From NCBI GenBank assembly GCA_016209015.1, contig JACQWY010000027.1, positions 124,001 to 188,000 on the forward strand: 64,000 nucleotides of DNA, given 5' to 3'. The notes under the pieces are model-generated. The model had not been told where the DNA came from. It searched no databases and saw nothing but the letters and a program-made list of their open reading frames with translations. Of this stretch, positions 39,394-47,956 are shown in pieces. Position numbers and translations under genes: made by a program. How positions within the stretch are numbered: the first letter of the stretch is position 1; each line of letters starts with the position of its first letter. The stretch is from Gammaproteobacteria bacterium (GTDB lineage: Bacteria; Pseudomonadota; Gammaproteobacteria; Ga0077536).

Positions 39394-40383
39394 ATGTCGG
39401 ATCCGGTCGTCGAACAGACGCAATTCAATCTTACCTTCCTCGATTTCGAGCAGCCGATCGCGGAGCTCGAAGCGAAGATCGAGGAGCTCCGCAAGGTCGG
39501 CAACGATTCGGAGCTCGACATCTCCGGCGAGATCGGCCGGCTGCAGGAGCGCTCGAAGGATCTCGCGAAGCAGATTTTCTCCAATCTCACGTCCTGGCAG
39601 GTCTCGCGGCTCGCGCGTCATCCGCAGCGGCCGTTCACGCTCGACTACGTGGAGCGCATCCTCACCGACATCGAGGAACTGCACGGCGATCGCCTGTTCG
39701 GCGACGATCCCGCGATGGTCTCCGGCATCGGCCGGCTCGACGGCCGCGGCGTCGCATTCATAGGCCACCAGAAGGGCCGCAACACGAAGGAGAACCTGCG
39801 CCGCAACTTCGGCATGCCGAAGCCCGAGGGTTACCGCAAGGCATTGCGCATCATGGAGCTCGCGGAGCGGTTCCGCCTGCCGGTGCTGACGTTCATCGAC
39901 ACCCCCGGCGCCTATCCCGGCATCGACGCCGAGGAGCGGGGGCAGAGCGAGGCCATCGCGCGCAACCTCATGGTGATGGCGAATCTGCGCACGCCGATCG
40001 TCGCCGTCGTCATCGGCGAGGGCGGTTCGGGCGGTGCGCTCGCGATCGGCGTCGCGGATCGCGTGATGATGCTGCAATACGCGACCTACGCCGTGATCTC
40101 GCCCGAGGGCTGCGCCTCGATCCTCTGGAAGAGCGCCGAGAAGGCCTCCGATGCCGCGGAGGCGATGGGCATCACCTCGGCGCGTCTGCAGCAGCTCGGA
40201 CTCATCGATCAAATCATCGAGGAGCCGCTCGGCGGCGCGCACCGCAATTGCGATCTCATCGCCGATCGCGTCCATCTCGCCGTCGCCGGTGCGCTCGAGA
40301 AGCTCGTCATGCTCGACTCCGAACAACTCCTGAACCAGCGTCACGGCCGGCTCAACCGCTTCGGTGAGTTCACCGAGAAGTAA
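39394..40383 (+). CDS. accA: Acetyl-CoA carboxylase carboxyltransferase subunit alpha
   Basis: A 329-residue subunit that with AccD transfers CO2 from carboxybiotin to acetyl-CoA, the first committed step of fatty acid synthesis. The start [21 protein letters not shown] and the crotonase-like core [28 protein letters not shown]-like block are present (e.g. [15 protein letters not shown]), as are [20 protein letters not shown] and [12 protein letters not shown]. coli AccA has 319 residues. It follows dnaE after a 129-base gap that shows only GC-rich sequence. Its last 20 bases overlap the start of tilS. Confidence 0.97.
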
Positions 40384-41710
40384 GCTCGCCGCGACCGTCG
40401 CGGCGCGGCTCGCAGCCGAGCTCGCGACGCTGCCGGAGTGTCGCCGTCTCGTGGTCGCGTTCTCCGGCGGGGTCGATTCCCGCGTGCTTCTCGACTGCCT
40501 CGTGCGCGAAGGTCCGTTCCCGCCGCTCGCGATTCTCGCCTGTCACGTCGACCATGGTCTGAATCCCGACAGCGCGCAGTGGGCGGTGTGGTGCGCGTCG
40601 CGCGCCGCCGCGCACGGCGTCGCGTTTCATGCCGAGCGCCTGCCGCCGCGCGCCGAGGACGGCGAAAGTGCCGAGGCCTGGGCGCGGCGCCTGCGCTACG
40701 GCGTGCTCGAACGGATCTCCGAAACCGGCGATCTCCTCCTGACCGCGCATCAGCGCGAGGACCAGGCGGAGACGCTGCTGCTCGCCGCGCTGCGCGGCGG
40801 CGGCCCGCGCGGATTGAGCGGGATCGCGCCGGCGCGCCCGCTCGGCCGCGGCCGTCTCGTACGTCCGTTGCTCGACGTCCCGCGCGCCGACATCGAGGCC
40901 TATGCGGAGCAGTGCGGCCTCGACTGGCTCGAGGATCCCTCGAACGGCGAAGCGCACTTCGACCGCAATTTCCTGCGCCATCGCATCCTGCCGCTGCTGC
41001 GCACCCGCTGGCCGGCCGCGGACGTGACGCTCGCACGTGTCGCGGAGCTGCAGCGCGAGGCCGCGGACGAGCTCGAGGCCATCGCCGATCGTGAGCTCGC
41101 GCGGCTCGTCGTCGCGCCGGGCGAGCTCGATCTGGCCGCTCTGCGCACGCACGCGCCGCCGCTCCGCCGGCTCCTGCTCCGGCGCTTCGTCGCGGCCGCC
41201 GGACGGCCGCTCCCCTCCCATGAGCACCTCGCGCAGATCGAGCGCTGTCTCGTCGACTCGGGACCGGAGGCGGCGGGACCGGTGGTGTGGGGCGGCGTGG
41301 CGTTGCGGCGTTATCGCGATCGTCTCCATCTCGGCGCGCCGCAGGCGGTGCCTGCCGCGGACGCGTGCTGGCGATGGACGGGGGAGCGGCTTTTCGAGCT
41401 GCCGCACGGCACGCTCACGACGCGGGAAATGTGCGGCGCGGGGCTCGCGCTGCGGACGATTGCCGGCGCGGACGTCGAATTGCGCCTGCGCCGCGGCGGC
41501 GAACGCTGCCGCCCGGCGGGACGCGCGCACAGCCAGACCTTGAAGCACGTATTGCAGGAGCGCGGTGTGCCGCCGTGGCGGCGCGCGGGACTGCCGCTCG
41601 TCTATGCGGACGGGACACTCGTCGCGGTCGCGGATCTCTTCGTCTGCGAGGGCCACGTCGCGCGCGACGCGGAACCGGGCCTCGCGCTCACCTGGTCGCC
41701 GCGCGACTGA
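40364..41710 (+). CDS. tilS: tRNA(Ile)-lysidine synthase
   Basis: A 448-residue PP-loop ATPase that attaches lysine to C34 of tRNA-Ile(CAU), changing both codon reading and charging identity; essential. The PP-loop [15 protein letters not shown] (about 28-42), CHVDHGLNP and [19 protein letters not shown] are intact. The middle (TilS substrate) domain and C-terminal domain ([20 protein letters not shown]) with [15 protein letters not shown] are also seen. The GTG at 40364 overlaps the accA end by 20 bases and gives the family N-terminal length. It ends 9 bases from a convergent gene. Confidence 0.95.
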
Positions 41711-41719
41711 GGCGCGGGC

Positions 41720-43309
41720 TCACTCCGGCGTGCGCGTCCGGATCATGATCGTCGGCTCTTCGGCCTCGTAGTGTTCGTCGTGGCAGGTGTAGCGAAGCTC
41801 GACTTCGCCGATCTCGACGCGATCGCCTTCCTCCAGCACCGCCGATTCGACGCGCGCCCCGTTCACGAACACGCCGTTCGCCGACGCGAGATCGCACAGC
41901 ACGTAGCGGCCCTGATCGTTCATGCGGATCTCGGCGTGCAGGCGCGAGACGGAGCGATCCTCGAGGCGCAGATCGTTGTTGCGGCTGCGGCCGATGCGCC
42001 AGGGCAGGCTCGAGATCGCGTGCCGCAACGAGGGCGGCTGGATCGCGACGAGGAAGGCATGCGAGCGCGGCGCCGGTGCCGGCGCGTTGCCGGCGGGGAC
42101 CGTGATCGGCGGCTGCTCGGCGGATCTGCGTCGCGCCATGATGAAGAAGGCCACGGCAATACCGAGGATCAGCACGACCGGCGTCGCCATCGCGATCGGC
42201 CAGCCGATGCCGCGCGGCGGCACGAATTCCCGGCGCTTGCGGGCCGGCGGTGCGCCGCCTTCCGGCGCAGGCGCGGCGGCGGGCGCGGCCGACGATGCAG
42301 GCGGCGCCGCGGGCGCTGCCGCAGGGGGCGGCGGCGCGGTGTCGACCGCGGCCTGCGGCGCCCCGGTGTGAGCGAGCGGAATCGGCAGGGCCAGCTCGAT
42401 CGGCCCGTCCGCGCTCTGCAGGGCGATCGTGAGCGTCGTGACGTCCGCAGTCAGCTTCGCGGCGAGCTCGTCGAGCGCGAAATCGACCGTGCCGCCGCTC
42501 TCGGCCGCGGCGAGCAGCGCGGTGAAGAACGCGTCGGGCAGCGCGGCCTGCGGGCCGCCTGCCGCGGCGAACACGCCGCCGGTTTCCTCGGCGAGCCGGC
42601 GCAGCGTCTGCATGCCGACCGCGAGCGCGGTCGAACGCGGATAACCGATGGCGGAGATCACCACGTCGGCGGCGCGCGCGGCATGCACGACGTCCTCGAG
42701 GTGGTAAGCCGTGTCCTCGGCGAGACCGTCGGAGAGCAGCACGAGCTCGCGGCGCGCGGCCGGCACGGCGGCGAGCTGCTTCACGCCCTCGATCGCATTG
42801 CGGTAGAGCTCGGTGTTCAGGCCCGTCGCGCGCAACGCCGCGGCGCGGCGCGTGATGTCCGCGGGCGCGGCGCCGGGCGCGGCGAGCATGACGAGATCCG
42901 CATCGAAGCTCGCGAGCCCGAAACGTCGCTGCGGGGTGGCGAGCGCGAGCAGGCGGCCGATGTGCGCGGCGTATTCGTTCATCACGGGCTGCCGCCCGGG
43001 ATCGCTGGTATCGACGAGGATCAGCACCGCCGTCGTGTCGGTGCCGGCGGTGAACGGTTCGAGCCGCGCCGCGGCGACATTCGCCGTGCCGGCCGCGAGC
43101 GTCGCGCCGCCGGCCGTGCCGCCGGCCTTCAGCCGGTAGTCGCAGTGCAGGCGATTCCCCGCGGCGGGCGTGCAGGCGACGGCCGCGCGCTCGTCCTGGC
43201 GCGTCGCCGCCGGCAGCGTCGTGACCGCGAGTGCGCCGGCCAGCAGGAGCGCGGCACGCGCGAGCTCACTTCTCGGGGAACAGGGGATCGGGAAGATCGA
43301 AGAACTCAA
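41720..43309 (-). CDS. Transmembrane protein with periplasmic vWA domain and cytoplasmic FHA domain
   Basis: A 529-residue protein, last of a leftward five-gene operon. A signal-like hydrophobic segment (about 16-35) precedes a von Willebrand A-like domain (about 92-290). The metal-site loop reads DTSDP (100-104), not canonical DxSxS, though SDG (193-195) and a Thr near 166 remain, so metal binding may be altered. A Pro/Ala linker (325-357), one membrane span (about 369-391) and an FHA domain (about 425-510) follow, with WRIGRSRNNDLRL, SVSRLHAEI and SANGVFVNG intact. FHA domains bind phosphothreonine, so this could relay periplasmic events to a cytosolic kinase partner (inference). The TTG start at 43309, overlapping the upstream gene by 44 bases, is the best available but uncertain. 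Confidence 0.82.
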   Translation of the reverse strand: MSSSIFPIPCSPRSELARAALLLAGALAVTTLPAATRQDERAAVACTPAAGNRLHCDYRLKAGGTAGGATLAAGTANVAAARLEPFTAGTDTTAVLILVDTSDPGRQPVMNEYAAHIGRLLALATPQRRFGLASFDADLVMLAAPGAAPADITRRAAALRATGLNTELYRNAIEGVKQLAAVPAARRELVLLSDGLAEDTAYHLEDVVHAARAADVVISAIGYPRSTALAVGMQTLRRLAEETGGVFAAAGGPQAALPDAFFTALLAAAESGGTVDFALDELAAKLTADVTTLTIALQSADGPIELALPIPLAHTGAPQAAVDTAPPPPAAAPAAPPASSAAPAAAPAPEGGAPPARKRREFVPPRGIGWPIAMATPVVLILGIAVAFFIMARRRSAEQPPITVPAGNAPAPAPRSHAFLVAIQPPSLRHAISSLPWRIGRSRNNDLRLEDRSVSRLHAEIRMNDQGRYVLCDLASANGVFVNGARVESAVLEEGDRVEIGEVELRYTCHDEHYEAEEPTIMIRTRTPE

Positions 43310-43787
43310 TGGACACTCCTCGGCTGCCGGCGTGGCTCAGGTCGTTCGGATGGGCGGCGTGGCCGGGTCCCTCGATACGCTCGCCGATCTGCGGCAGATT
43401 CTTGTGCAGCTTGTTCCCGACGTCCACGGTCTTGAGCTGCAATTCGGCAGAGAACGGAAACACGAACGCCCTCGGCACGGGACGCGCGGTGCCGCCGAGG
43501 TTCATGTCCGTCACCCAGAAATAGATCGCGCCCTTCGAGGCGCCGCTCTTGTCGGGCTCCTGGACGTGAAGCCCCACGACGTTGAAGCGCGCCGGCAGCA
43601 CCGCGGGCACCGTCGGCCAGCCCGCGAGCTGCGGCAGGCTCGTCCACGACAGCCACAGCGTCGCGCCGACGAGCGCGGTCGCCCCGAGCTTCACCCACCA
43701 CGGCCACGGCGTGAGGACGAGGACCTTCACGAGCAGCAGCACGAGGAGCGCATAGGCCCCGACGAGCATCCAGAGCGCGGTGTTCAT
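43266..43787 (-). CDS. Two-span membrane protein, paralogue of its upstream neighbour
   Basis: A 173-residue protein of unknown function. Two hydrophobic spans (about 5-26 and 32-50) are followed by an exported or cytosolic domain with the pattern GWPT..AVLPARFNVVGLHVQEPD, GASKGAIYFWVTDM, RPVPRAFVFPF, and NLPQIGE. The same pattern in the same order occurs in the adjacent gene at 43784-44308, so the two arose by duplication. The ATG at 43787 overlaps that gene's stop (ATGA). It ends inside the vWA/FHA gene's start region. I know no named family. By context it is a structural subunit of the ExbB-like/vWA membrane system. Confidence 0.75.
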   Translation of the reverse strand: MNTALWMLVGAYALLVLLLVKVLVLTPWPWWVKLGATALVGATLWLSWTSLPQLAGWPTVPAVLPARFNVVGLHVQEPDKSGASKGAIYFWVTDMNLGGTARPVPRAFVFPFSAELQLKTVDVGNKLHKNLPQIGERIEGPGHAAHPNDLSHAGSRGVSIEFFDLPDPLFPEK

Positions 43788-44308
43788 CGCACGGCCTCCT
43801 TGCTCGGCGGCACGTCGGGCGGCGCGTCGCGGAGCGTTATCTTCGCGCTCTTCTGGCCGCGCTGGTCGCGGTTGCGCGGCACGCCGAACGGATCCTTGTC
43901 GTCCTCCGCTTCACCGATCTGCGGAATGTTCTGGCGGAGCTTGCCGTTCGCCTCCGTGAACTTCGCCTTCAGCTCGGGCGTGAACGGCAGGCGATAGGCG
44001 CGCGGCCGCGCATCCGCGCCGGCCTGCATGTCCGCGGCCCAGAAGAAGACATCGCCTTTTGCGCCCGTCTGCGGATCAGGCTCCTGGATGTAGATCGCGT
44101 AGAGATTGAATTTCTTCGGCACCGCGCCGTCCGTCGGCCAGCCGAGCCGCGTCGGCAGGCCGTAGTACACGGCGACGTACGCCGCCGAGACGAGCGCGAT
44201 GATCGCGATTTTCGCGCCCGGTCGCCAGCGCGAGTAGAGGCACAGTCCCAGCAGGACCGCCGCCGTGACCACGTAGAGCGCGACGAGCGCGCCGATGCCG
44301 AGCGTCAT
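43784..44308 (-). CDS. Two-span membrane protein of the same duplicated family
   Basis: A 174-residue protein, two predicted spans (about 4-25 and 31-50), then a soluble domain with GWPTDGAVPKKFNLYAIYIQEPD, TGAKGDVFFWAADM, ARPRAYRLPF and QNIPQIGEAEDDKDPFGV. Shared spacing with the next gene marks a tandem duplication with substantial divergence. The C-terminus here is charged and ends KEAVR. It follows the DUF at 44352 by 43 bases in the same leftward operon. I do not recognise the family; the tryptophan-rich FWxxDM core may be a binding surface but that is speculation. Confidence 0.75.
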   Translation of the reverse strand: MTLGIGALVALYVVTAAVLLGLCLYSRWRPGAKIAIIALVSAAYVAVYYGLPTRLGWPTDGAVPKKFNLYAIYIQEPDPQTGAKGDVFFWAADMQAGADARPRAYRLPFTPELKAKFTEANGKLRQNIPQIGEAEDDKDPFGVPRNRDQRGQKSAKITLRDAPPDVPPSKEAVR

Positions 44309-44351
44309 GAGCCACTCCTCGTTGTGAGCTTGCCGGAGCCGGGATGCACGT

Positions 44352-44975
44352 TCATTCGCGTTTGAACGCCTTGCTGACCAGGCTCTTCTGCAGATGATTC
44401 ACTTCGCCGAGACTGCCGTCCTGGAGGATCGTGAAGCGCAGCGCCGTCTTCTCGTCGTCCTTCCGTTCCAGCGTGAGCGTGTCGTAGTAGAGCACCTGCA
44501 GCCGGGGATTGATCTTGTCGATGCGCACCGTCACCGGCACCGGCCGGCCGTTTTCCGTCGCGTAGTAGTGGACGTTCACGACGTACTCGCCGGGAATGAC
44601 GCCGCGGACCGTCGTCACTTCCTGGTTCAGCGGGTTGACGATCGTGCGCCCGTTGATTTCGAGCGTGTCGTTCAGGTTCCCGCGATCGTCGCGGTCGAGA
44701 TGGATGAGCCCCTGCTCCTTGTTCTGGAAGTAGATGAGCTGTCCGGCCGGGTCCTCGACGTAGGTGTCGATGTCGTTCGGGTCGTTGTCCGGCCAGGTCA
44801 CGGTGATGATGTACTCTGCCTTCGGATCGATGAGGCCCTTCTTCGCCTCGGGATTCATGAACAGCACCGACAGCACGAAGAGATAGGTGATCGCCTGGAT
44901 GATCTTGAACAGGACGGCGGTGATGGGATCGAAGGGCTGGCGATTCCGGTTGCTGCCGCGGCCGCGAAAGGACAT
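44352..44975 (-). CDS. Single-span membrane protein with beta-rich periplasmic domain (possible ExbD/TolR counterpart)
   Basis: A 207-residue protein. An Arg-rich N-terminus (about 1-13), one span (about 19-40) preceded by an Asp in QPFDPITAVLF (Asp16), then a beta-rich domain: YIITVTWPDNDPNDIDTYVEDP, IYFQNKEQGLIHLDRDD, VRGVIPGEYVVNVHYYA. The WPDNDPNDIDTYV...DP pattern resembles DUF2135/YfaP-type beta-sandwich domains. The topology (short cytosolic tail, one span, periplasmic domain) is that of TolR/ExbD, and the gene directly follows the ExbB-like gene, so a stator partnership is plausible. It has no recognisable ExbD sequence signature. Start ATG at 44975. Confidence 0.72.
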   Translation of the reverse strand: MSFRGRGSNRNRQPFDPITAVLFKIIQAITYLFVLSVLFMNPEAKKGLIDPKAEYIITVTWPDNDPNDIDTYVEDPAGQLIYFQNKEQGLIHLDRDDRGNLNDTLEINGRTIVNPLNQEVTTVRGVIPGEYVVNVHYYATENGRPVPVTVRIDKINPRLQVLYYDTLTLERKDDEKTALRFTILQDGSLGEVNHLQKSLVSKAFKRE

Positions 44976-45043
44976 CCGGCGTCCTCAGCCGCGGAACGAT
45001 GGACGGCGCGACGGCTTCGCGAGCGGGCGGACAGGGTGCGGCA

Positions 45044-45796
45044 TCATGCAGCCGGCCGGCCGGCGGCGAGGCGCGGCATGACCTGCACTTCCTTGATGTA
45101 GATCGCCGTCTCGACGAGACGGTCCAGCGCGCGCTCGAGGAGCTGATAGGGGATGCCGAGCAGGATGCCGCCGACGAGGCTCGCGAGCGTCGTGTAGAGC
45201 GCCGTGCTCATGCCGATGCTCATCTGTTTCAGCACTTTCTGCATCGTCGTGGCATCGAGCGTCGCGGTATCGGCGATCGAGCCGAGCATGAGGATGAAGC
45301 CGACGAGCGTGCCGAGGAAGCCGACCTTCAACATCACGTCGATGTAGAACCAGCCGAAGTCGTTCGCGCTGCGGAGCTTCGAGGCATAGGCTTCGAGCAG
45401 CTCGCTGCCCGCCTCGCCGGCCTCGTTCGCGGCCAGGGCGCGCGGGTGCGCGGCGTAGAGGTCGGCGAGGTATTCCGCGACGAGCCCCGCGGGCAGCGCG
45501 CCGCCCGGCGTCGCGAGGCCGCGGCCCTGCACCGAGATCGGTTCCTCGCCGCGCGTCGCGAGCGCGGCGGTCAGCGCATCGGCGCGATCGATCTCGCGCG
45601 AGAGGTAGAGCGTGCGCCGGAACGTGTGCCCGAGGCCGATGCCGTACATCACGATGAGGACGATGCAGATGCGGCTCTGATCGGCCTCCACCATGGCCTG
45701 CACGAGCCCTTGATCGACGCACACGACGGCGCCGAAGACCACGAGGCCGAAGAGGCAGAACCAGAGGAGCAGCGGCAGATGCTTGGGCTGTGTCAT
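45044..45796 (-). CDS. MotA/TolQ/ExbB-family proton channel protein
   Basis: A 250-residue inner membrane protein with spans near 8-28, 43-60, 150-173 and 195-217. The last two carry the family signature: LKVGFLGTLVGFILMLGSI and MSTALYTTLASLVGGILLGIPY, corresponding to TM2/TM3 of ExbB/TolQ that line the proton path. A cytosolic domain (about 61-148) separates the pairs, as in MotA. Members use the proton gradient to move a partner in the periplasm. It is the first gene of a leftward five-gene operon that has no tonB, tolA, tolR or motB, and is not a flagellar context. The ATG at 45796 is clear. Partner and role are unknown. Confidence 0.88.
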   Translation of the reverse strand: MTQPKHLPLLLWFCLFGLVVFGAVVCVDQGLVQAMVEADQSRICIVLIVMYGIGLGHTFRRTLYLSREIDRADALTAALATRGEEPISVQGRGLATPGGALPAGLVAEYLADLYAAHPRALAANEAGEAGSELLEAYASKLRSANDFGWFYIDVMLKVGFLGTLVGFILMLGSIADTATLDATTMQKVLKQMSIGMSTALYTTLASLVGGILLGIPYQLLERALDRLVETAIYIKEVQVMPRLAAGRPAA

Positions 45797-46186: not shown

Positions 46187-46663
46187 TCACTTTCCGACCA
46201 CGTACTCCAGGATGTCGCGGATCTCGCCGTTCAGGCGCTTCGCGAACGCGACGACGCGCGGGTCCTTGTGCTGCTCGGGCAGGAGGATGGCACTCACGAC
46301 GGTGCGGTGGTCCGCGACGTGGACCGTGATGCGGCAGGGCATGAGCGCGATGAAATCGGGATCGAGCAGCAGCACCTCGCGCGCGTTCTCGAGGTTGCAG
46401 AAATGAATCACCTCGACATCGGGGAAGTCTTCGTAGCCGCGATCGCGCAGCCCCTTGCCGATGGCGTTGCGGCCGGTGATGCGGTAGTTGCGCTCGGTGA
46501 TCGCGAACTCGATTTCCATCACCACGTCGTCGAAGGACTTGTCGGTGGTGGCGCGGGCGATGCGGTCGCCGGCCTCGGTGACGGCGACCTCGGGGGCCGG
46601 GGCCGCCACGCCCGGAACGAGCAGCGCCGCGAGCAGGAGCAGGCGGCGGGCGACCCGGATCAT
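46187..46663 (-). CDS. Exported DUF302 family protein
   Basis: A 158-residue protein with a signal peptide (about 1-22, LLLLAALLVPGVAAPA) and one DUF302 domain (about 40-150). The family core KSFDDVVMEIEFAITERNYRI, the middle FPDVEVIHFCNLENAREVL and the PCRITVHV strand are present. DUF302 proteins have a BPI-like/TATA-box-like fold and no established function; exported versions occur beside envelope enzymes. The start ATG at 46663 overlaps the L,D-transpeptidase stop (ATGA), so the two proteins are made together. Two Cys residues (HFC, PCR) could form a disulfide. Confidence 0.82.
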   Translation of the reverse strand: MIRVARRLLLLAALLVPGVAAPAPEVAVTEAGDRIARATTDKSFDDVVMEIEFAITERNYRITGRNAIGKGLRDRGYEDFPDVEVIHFCNLENAREVLLLDPDFIALMPCRITVHVADHRTVVSAILLPEQHKDPRVVAFAKRLNGEIRDILEYVVGK

Positions 46664-47232
46664 TCCTTGATCGTGACCTTCGTGCCGACGGCGACGAGGT
46701 TGCGCAGCTCGTTGACCTCGGGGTTCGTGAGCGCGATGCAGCCCTTCGTCCAGTTAGCGTGGCGATGGATGATCAGCGTATCGCTGTCGTCGGCGGGCAG
46801 GCCGTGGATGCCGATCGCGCCGCCGAGCCGCGTGTTCTGCGGCGGCAGCGTGCCGGCCTTGCGCGCGCTCACGATGCGGTCGAAATCCACGCGCGAGATC
46901 AGCTTGTTCTTCAGCCCGAAGTAGGCGTCCTTCACGTTCGGGTAGTCGAGCCGCATGAAGAGATGGAACGGGCTGTTGTCGACCATCTCGGTGACGTGAT
47001 AGACCCCGAGCGGCGTGCGCTTGTCGCCGGATTCGCGCTTGTCGCCGCGGCCGCCGCTGCCGAGCGCGACGTGGTAGCGCTTCGCGATGGCCTCGCCGCG
47101 TTTCAGCAGGAGCAACTGGTCGTTCTTGTGGATTTCGATGTCGTAGGCCGTGGCGTCGCCGCCGCCGTCTGCCCGGACCGTCGGCGCGCTCACCATCAGG
47201 CCCAGCAGCAGTGCATACACAGGCACTCGCAT
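46660..47232 (-). CDS. L,D-transpeptidase (YkuD domain) family protein
   Basis: A 190-residue exported protein with a signal peptide (about 1-21) and a YkuD domain (about 30-188). The catalytic block is conserved: IGIHGLPADD (His143), DTLIIHRHANWTKGCIALTN (His158, Cys165). Such enzymes form 3-3 peptidoglycan cross-links or anchor lipoproteins; short single-domain ones like YafK-type proteins may hydrolyse instead. GDKRTPLGVYHV is the usual donor-site strand. The start ATG at 47232 has GAGGA 8 bases upstream; a longer frame upstream lacks a signal peptide. It is followed by DUF302 with a 4-base overlap and is divergent from cytochrome b561. Confidence 0.88.
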   Translation of the reverse strand: MRVPVYALLLGLMVSAPTVRADGGGDATAYDIEIHKNDQLLLLKRGEAIAKRYHVALGSGGRGDKRESGDKRTPLGVYHVTEMVDNSPFHLFMRLDYPNVKDAYFGLKNKLISRVDFDRIVSARKAGTLPPQNTRLGGAIGIHGLPADDSDTLIIHRHANWTKGCIALTNPEVNELRNLVAVGTKVTIKE

Positions 47233-47425
47233 GCGCTGGTTCCTCGTCGTTGATGTCGTCGGCCGCGCGCCGCGGAGTCTGGTCCTGCGCGCGTCGCTCC
47301 CGGCGGTCCGTGGGCGCCCGTCCGCCGCGAGCCCTGTCGTTTTCTTTATGATCGGATTGTATGCCGAGGCGCGCCCCAGCGTCACGCTGTGTAGAATGCT
47401 GCGCTCGTCCAGCCGGTCCGAGGCC

Positions 47426-47956
47426 ATGAACAACCCGACACGCTATACGCTGCCCGCCATCGTCTTGCATTGGCTCATGGCCGCCCTCGTCGTGACGCTC
47501 TTCGCGCTCGGCTGGTACATGGTCGAGCTGCCGAACGGGCCGCAGCGCGGCGAGATGTTCGCACTCCACAAGTCGATCGGCCTGACCGTCCTGTGGCTGC
47601 TCGGCCTGCGCTTCGCCTGGCGTCTGGGCCATCGCCCGCCGGTGCTGCCGGCCTCCATGGCCGCCTGGCAGCGCCGGCTCGCCACCGGCGTGCATCATCT
47701 GCTCTACCTGCTGCTCCTGCTGCAGCCGGTGTCCGGCTACGTCTCCTCCTCGTTCAGCGGCCACGATACGAAGTATTTCGGGATCCCGCTGCCGGGCTGG
47801 GGCCATCACGACGCCGCCGTGAACGAATTCTTCACCGAGGTCCACGAAGTCGTCTCGGTCGCGCTGCTGACGGCGATCATCGTCCACCTCGTCGGCGCGC
47901 TGTCGCATCTGCGGCCGGGCGAGGAGAACGTCCTGCGCCGCATGTGGCCGCTCTAG
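47426..47956 (+). CDS. Cytochrome b561 family protein
   Basis: A 176-residue four-helix diheme membrane cytochrome of the bacterial b561 (CybB) type. Probable axial histidines are His15 (VLHWLMA), His48 (ALHKSIG), His140 (VHEVV) and His154 (IVHLVGA), placed in four spans (about 11-31, 48-66, 88-106, 141-162). The WYMVELPNGP and GHDTKYFGIPLPGW segments are typical. CybB oxidises ubiquinol and can pass electrons to periplasmic superoxide; other members serve unidentified donors. The ATG at 47426 matches the family start; a longer frame upstream overlaps the divergent gene. It may share regulation with the kinase that follows 27 bases later. Confidence 0.93.
   Translation: MNNPTRYTLPAIVLHWLMAALVVTLFALGWYMVELPNGPQRGEMFALHKSIGLTVLWLLGLRFAWRLGHRPPVLPASMAAWQRRLATGVHHLLYLLLLLQPVSGYVSSSFSGHDTKYFGIPLPGWGHHDAAVNEFFTEVHEVVSVALLTAIIVHLVGALSHLRPGEENVLRRMWPL

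Follow-up and report, generated by a model that had tools for sequence, protein, structure and literature searches.

Proton-driven motors of the MotA/ExbB type power the Ton and Tol systems and flagella, and the ring motors driven by the proton motive force (PMF) form a small set of known machines. In the motors that have been reviewed, a conserved aspartate in the middle of the membrane is the proton-binding site (PMC9389320). A 2025 survey concluded that more PMF-driven ring motors await discovery; in the vWA force-transducer families that it describes, there is either an SHLS transducer helix or a pore helix that lies within the vWA protein itself (PMC12204202).

We have analyzed a locus of five genes in a 64,000-nucleotide stretch of gammaproteobacterial DNA (the window, from which the coordinates of the locus are taken). 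An earlier note on this DNA had proposed that they form a unit encoding a proton-driven envelope machine of the ExbB family, with a dedicated partner and an output through a vWA-FHA protein.

Results

Organization of the locus

ORF calling gave five open reading frames on the leftward strand, at the positions and with the short gaps or overlaps that the earlier note had described. Passing from A to D, there are gaps of 68 and 43 bp, followed by overlaps of 4 and 44 bp. Gene A (45044..45796, minus strand, as are all five) encodes a MotA/TolQ/ExbB-family protein of 250 amino acids, for which hydropathy predicts four spans. It scores 34.3 bits against Pfam MotA_ExbB (PF01618), above the cut-off of 22.9, and the head gene was thus correctly assigned to this family. 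Its similarity to characterized members is remote, and a PDB sequence search returned no match. Gene B (44352..44975; 207 amino acids) encodes an axle-type subunit with one span and, from AlphaFold and profile comparison, a predicted periplasmic DUF2135-related domain. C1 (43784..44308; 174 amino acids) and C2 (43266..43787; 173 amino acids) are two-span proteins, hydropathy giving two spans for C1 and one or two for C2; C2 ends in LPDPLFPEK, and the C-terminal PEK motif has been lost from C1. Gene D (41720..43309) has a TTG start and encodes 529 amino acids, comprising a signal peptide, a periplasmic vWA-like domain, a transmembrane span and a cytosolic FHA domain; hydropathy finds two spans, the signal peptide included.

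A DUF302 protein and a YkuD L,D-transpeptidase are encoded on one side of the cassette (46187..47433, minus strand), with two genes that we take from their sequences to be accA and tilS on the other (39394..41710, plus strand). These neighbors are syntenic in a gammaproteobacterial group of loci, in which the trio A-B-C lies between the YkuD/DUF302 pair and tilS/accA, often together with D. The host genome of 5.7 Mb contains 11 MotA_ExbB matches, that of gene A being the weakest.

The locus resembles ExbBD and TolQR (PMC12505986) in the family match of A, in the single N-terminal span of B with its P-x-x-D motif and in the A-then-B operon. It differs in that A has four spans rather than three, that the B domain is of DUF2135 rather than ExbD/TolR type, and that there is a near-obligatory third gene, C, without TonB or TolA. 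Stators of the MotAB/PomAB type share the four-span A and, with the Asp-type members of the present family, a single-span B with an intramembrane Asp; however, B here lacks the OmpA-type peptidoglycan domain, and there is no flagellar context. No Pfam match to an ExbD/TolR or OmpA-type periplasmic domain was found in B.

A, B, and C are a conserved unit in bacteria

We read the neighborhoods of relatives by ORF calling and HMMs, the gene calls in the relatives being mechanical. Among 95 non-redundant bacterial loci, A was adjacent upstream of B in 92, with one further case at a contig end, and C was adjacent downstream of B in 94; the median gaps within the trio were 4 and 14 bp. The genes therefore co-occur in other genomes, in the order A-B-C in nearly all of these loci, and this order rules out chance adjacency. 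As a five-gene unit the arrangement holds in part: A-B-C is conserved, whereas D and the second C are lineage specific.

B was present in 27 of 229 sampled gammaproteobacterial genomes (20 of the 198 good ones) and in 30 of 240 alphaproteobacterial genomes (26 of the 195 good ones), the latter count including at least two weak matches that may be other DUF2135 proteins. The trio thus occurs in approximately 10% of the Gamma- and Alphaproteobacteria sampled; in the GTDB contig collection, at least 456 stretches contain B. A profile search also located the trio in alphaproteobacteria with genomes of 7–9 Mb, and it was read from the ORFs of Azospirillum brasilense replicons. This retention across genera and classes bears out the idea of an envelope machine of the ExbB family that has its own dedicated partner. 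The surroundings of the cassette are diverse. Three cassettes (L052, L054 and L063) lie within clusters of genes for PQQ dehydrogenase, SoxYZ, metallo-beta-lactamase-fold and rhodanese proteins.

The earlier note could match the locus to no named system, and neither could we. B, C1 and C2 reached no Pfam, NCBIfam or PADLOC family, and we found neither a description of the trio nor a mention of DUF2135 in the literature searched, which excluded preprints and most subscription journals.

The periplasmic domain of B

The AlphaFold model of B (mean pLDDT 81) comprises a transmembrane helix at residues 17–40 (44856..44927) and a beta domain corresponding to the predicted periplasmic region, approximately residues 53–191 (44403..44819). 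The domain model superimposes on TerD structures with Z scores of 9.3–11.4 over 132–143 residues, the next unrelated fold giving Z of about 5.9. Yet sequence profiles gave no support for kinship in a comparison with five TerD sequences, and in B the domain is fused to an axle-type span. We therefore do not claim TerD homology, for which the fold alone speaks. By contrast, profile comparison aligned B with DUF2135 (PF09906, YfaP-like) with E = 3e-13 over about 114 columns, using two DUF2135 sequences only; here too B differs in its fusion to the axle-type span. In Pfam scoring the B of this locus reaches 17.7 bits against DUF2135 (cut-off 22) and a near relative 22.3 bits (G091), and a weak match was obtained for 8 of 26 relatives scanned. 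Searching the PDB with the B sequence gave nothing meaningful. In one locus (L173, 3083–6439) a large protein has vWA-like and repeat regions with a DUF2135-type domain at its C-terminal end, so that a single polypeptide can also combine vWA and DUF2135.

Five acidic residues, the two Asp of a DxD motif (D68, D70), the two of an RDD motif (D96, D97) and one Glu (E119), are invariant even in distant members of the family. Because of this invariance the sequences suggest that the domain may bind metal.

The two-span protein C

C1 and C2 are homologous, with 32% identity in a common alignment. In the AlphaFold model of C2 (mean pLDDT 87) a small beta domain accompanies two helices. The stretch that separates the two spans is positively charged, which by the positive-inside rule suggests that the beta domain is periplasmic. 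Structural matches to it were weak and OB-like only (best Z 6.8, 74 residues), and we have discarded this likeness as a clue to function. The C relatives scanned gave no consistent curated family, and C had no match in a PDB sequence search.

D is an optional accessory

The FHA domain of D occupies residues 437–501 (41807..42001; Pfam PF00498, E = 3.8e-20). Its vWA-like domain (42578..43027) matches VWA below threshold (E = 1e-4), with DTSDP at the expected metal-binding DxSxS motif; this spelling is common to most relatives. The architecture of D varies, being either vWA-TM-FHA or just TM-FHA. Within the 95 loci the fourth gene is D in 36 and a lipoprotein gene in 22, while 37 have neither, and the vWA-FHA output that had been placed at the core of the machine is therefore not a core part. 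The lipoprotein, which belongs to another group of loci, has a Cys that is invariant and is weakly similar to DUF3108. At one locus (L109, 7153–9995) a single A-B-C cassette is followed by three copies of the lipoprotein gene.

The span of this B lacks the expected aspartate

Across the family the span of B carries the motif D-P-F-T-D-L-L-F-N. The second Asp is that of P-x-x-D, as in the ExbD-type sequences NVVPYIDV and NVTPLVDV of the same genome. Alignment places Ala20 (44916..44918) at this conserved proton-carrier position in the B of the present locus, and Lys24 (44904..44906) in place of the conserved Asn four residues further on. Of 109 bacterial records, 96 have Asp at this position and 13 have Ala; these 13 belong without exception to the lineage of this bacterium, and 12 of them have two C genes. 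Five alphaproteobacterial loci (L166–L170) have Val, and all 48 viral rows, some of them repeated, keep the Asp. In a tree set of 117 sequences Lys replaces Asn in 17 of 17 Asp-less records and in none that have the Asp, and the upstream Asp16 is retained in all 17. The tree requires two changes to account for the Asp-less state, but an AU test does not reject a single one (p = 0.37), and for this reason we do not claim two independent origins.

A has conserved lumen threonines in its last two spans, T163 and T202/T203, which are 98–100% conserved in the column table. In the Asp-less lineage of this bacterium A has changed in step with B, by Q216P and G206S.

By the usual rule, then, the earlier description of the machine as proton driven does not follow for this copy, whose B has no equivalent of ExbD Asp25. 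It is best read as a derived form, to which the term proton driven cannot be applied without qualification. One could go further, and suppose that in this lineage the complex is unenergized and serves as a sensor or scaffold, relaying to the cytosolic FHA domain a signal from the periplasm (binding of metal by B, or of ligand by the vWA domain). The change of Asp to Ala or Val, always accompanied by Lys, would fit such a role, as would the duplication of C with loss of the C-terminal motif from one copy and the attachment of an FHA domain in part of the lineage. However, the lumen threonines of A are 100% conserved there, which would be unexpected if the ion path had gone, and D is missing from 8 of the 13 Asp-less records. 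We regard this as a tentative alternative, with the balance of probability against it.

Phages carry compact versions of the cassette

Relatives of B occur in 27 phage records, some of them GenBank/RefSeq duplicates, and all from isolated phages of Rhizobium or Sinorhizobium. The trio is found in lytic as well as in temperate phages, with B flanked by A and C as in RHph_I1_9 (105343–106832); in the temperate phage 16-3 the three genes are p038, p040 and p042. The AP-16-3 paper is silent on p036 and p040. IMG/VR contributed 42 further contigs, with the full trio in 41 and the remaining one cut by the contig end. The cassettes are found in unrelated phage groups with genomes of approximately 60–170 kb, and on contigs of up to 296 kb. 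Phage C proteins match the bacterial C profile weakly (E = 4e-5 to 3e-3), and since these scores are weak their identity rests partly on gene position. Viral A has a median length of 161 residues, compared with 248 in bacteria, because, as an alignment shows, it lacks the cytoplasmic loop. None of the phage proteins tested had a PHROG.

That phages possess the trio speaks for a function at the envelope that is of use in infection, rather than a role in nutrient uptake. It might be supposed that the phage trio is an infection module, acting in superinfection exclusion or in control of the envelope or lysis, and that the cellular copies have been domesticated from it. This would accord with the spread of cassettes over unrelated phage groups, and with a gene for a secreted trypsin-like serine protease that lies immediately before the A-B-C cassette in 16-3-like temperate rhizobial phages (L257, 5247–6146; L258, 3111–3821; L214, 3577–4224). 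Against it, the viral trio sits among replication or structural genes rather than in a clear lysis module, the neighbors sampled including members of the portal or head-tail adaptor, head closure, head maturation protease and single-strand binding families. We consider this reading rather unlikely. In five viral contigs (L234, L240, L242, L243 and L245) a multi-span transporter-like gene adjoins A (L234, 2549–3565; L243, 2483–3508). We presume that it resembles transporters of the SbmA/BacA type; for the copy in L234 there is a match to a PHROG without an assigned function.

Discussion

Taken together, we think it fairly probable that A-B-C represents ion-driven complexes of the inner membrane, a MotA/ExbB-type family that had not been named. 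We infer a 5:2 assembly, in which a pentameric ring of A would enclose two B subunits at their spans. In the usual, Asp-type form, proton transfer between the lumen threonines of A and the Asp in the B span would drive movement of the paired periplasmic domains of B. C, with a periplasmic domain beside the ring, might couple this movement to an envelope target, which could differ between lineages, being the lipoprotein in some and the vWA region of D in others. This role for C is a guess from its gene position, given that the TonB/TolA SHLS motif is absent. In the Ala/Lys lineage the ring would still be built, and either coupling may have shifted to the neighboring Asp16, or the complex may persist in a diminished form, regulated or sensing, that is read out via the cytosolic FHA domain of D.

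Ton, Tol, the 2025 vWA families and Zorya were each rejected as the identity of the system on their defining features. With the Ton/Tol force transducers or the motor-coupled vWA families (PMC12204202) the locus shares a TolQ-like ring gene and, next to it, one for a membrane-tethered vWA protein, but SHLS is found in none of 167 C sequences and none of 49 D sequences, the pore-type helix resides in a separate B, C is an extra component, and the vWA gene, where present, is optional and continues into TM and FHA regions; we consider membership of these groups very improbable. A Zorya-like anti-phage defense system is still less credible, since the likeness is confined to weak PADLOC matches of A, the best being to the two-span core of ZorA (E = 3e-3 to 1e-5), whereas A, at 250 amino acids against 460–700 in most ZorA models, is without the long tail of ZorA, PADLOC gives no match for B, C or D and ZorC/D are missing, lytic and temperate phages themselves carry the trio, and the gammaproteobacterial locus lies in stable housekeeping synteny.

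If the proposal of an ion-driven A-B-C family is correct, it would add to the known motors a family that is spread over two proteobacterial classes and has both a DUF2135 periplasmic domain and a further, near-obligatory subunit. The phage forms, including that of the classical temperate phage 16-3, would offer a minimal natural motor. It is conceivable, though we hold it doubtful, that phages carry a miniature ion-driven envelope motor of their own for infection, and that some cellular lineages, that of this bacterium among them, have rebuilt it with Lys for the proton-carrying Asp, so that its need for ions is different or absent. The paired switch of Asp to an apolar residue and of Asn to Lys would be a natural experiment, through which any requirement of such rings for the transmembrane Asp becomes directly testable.
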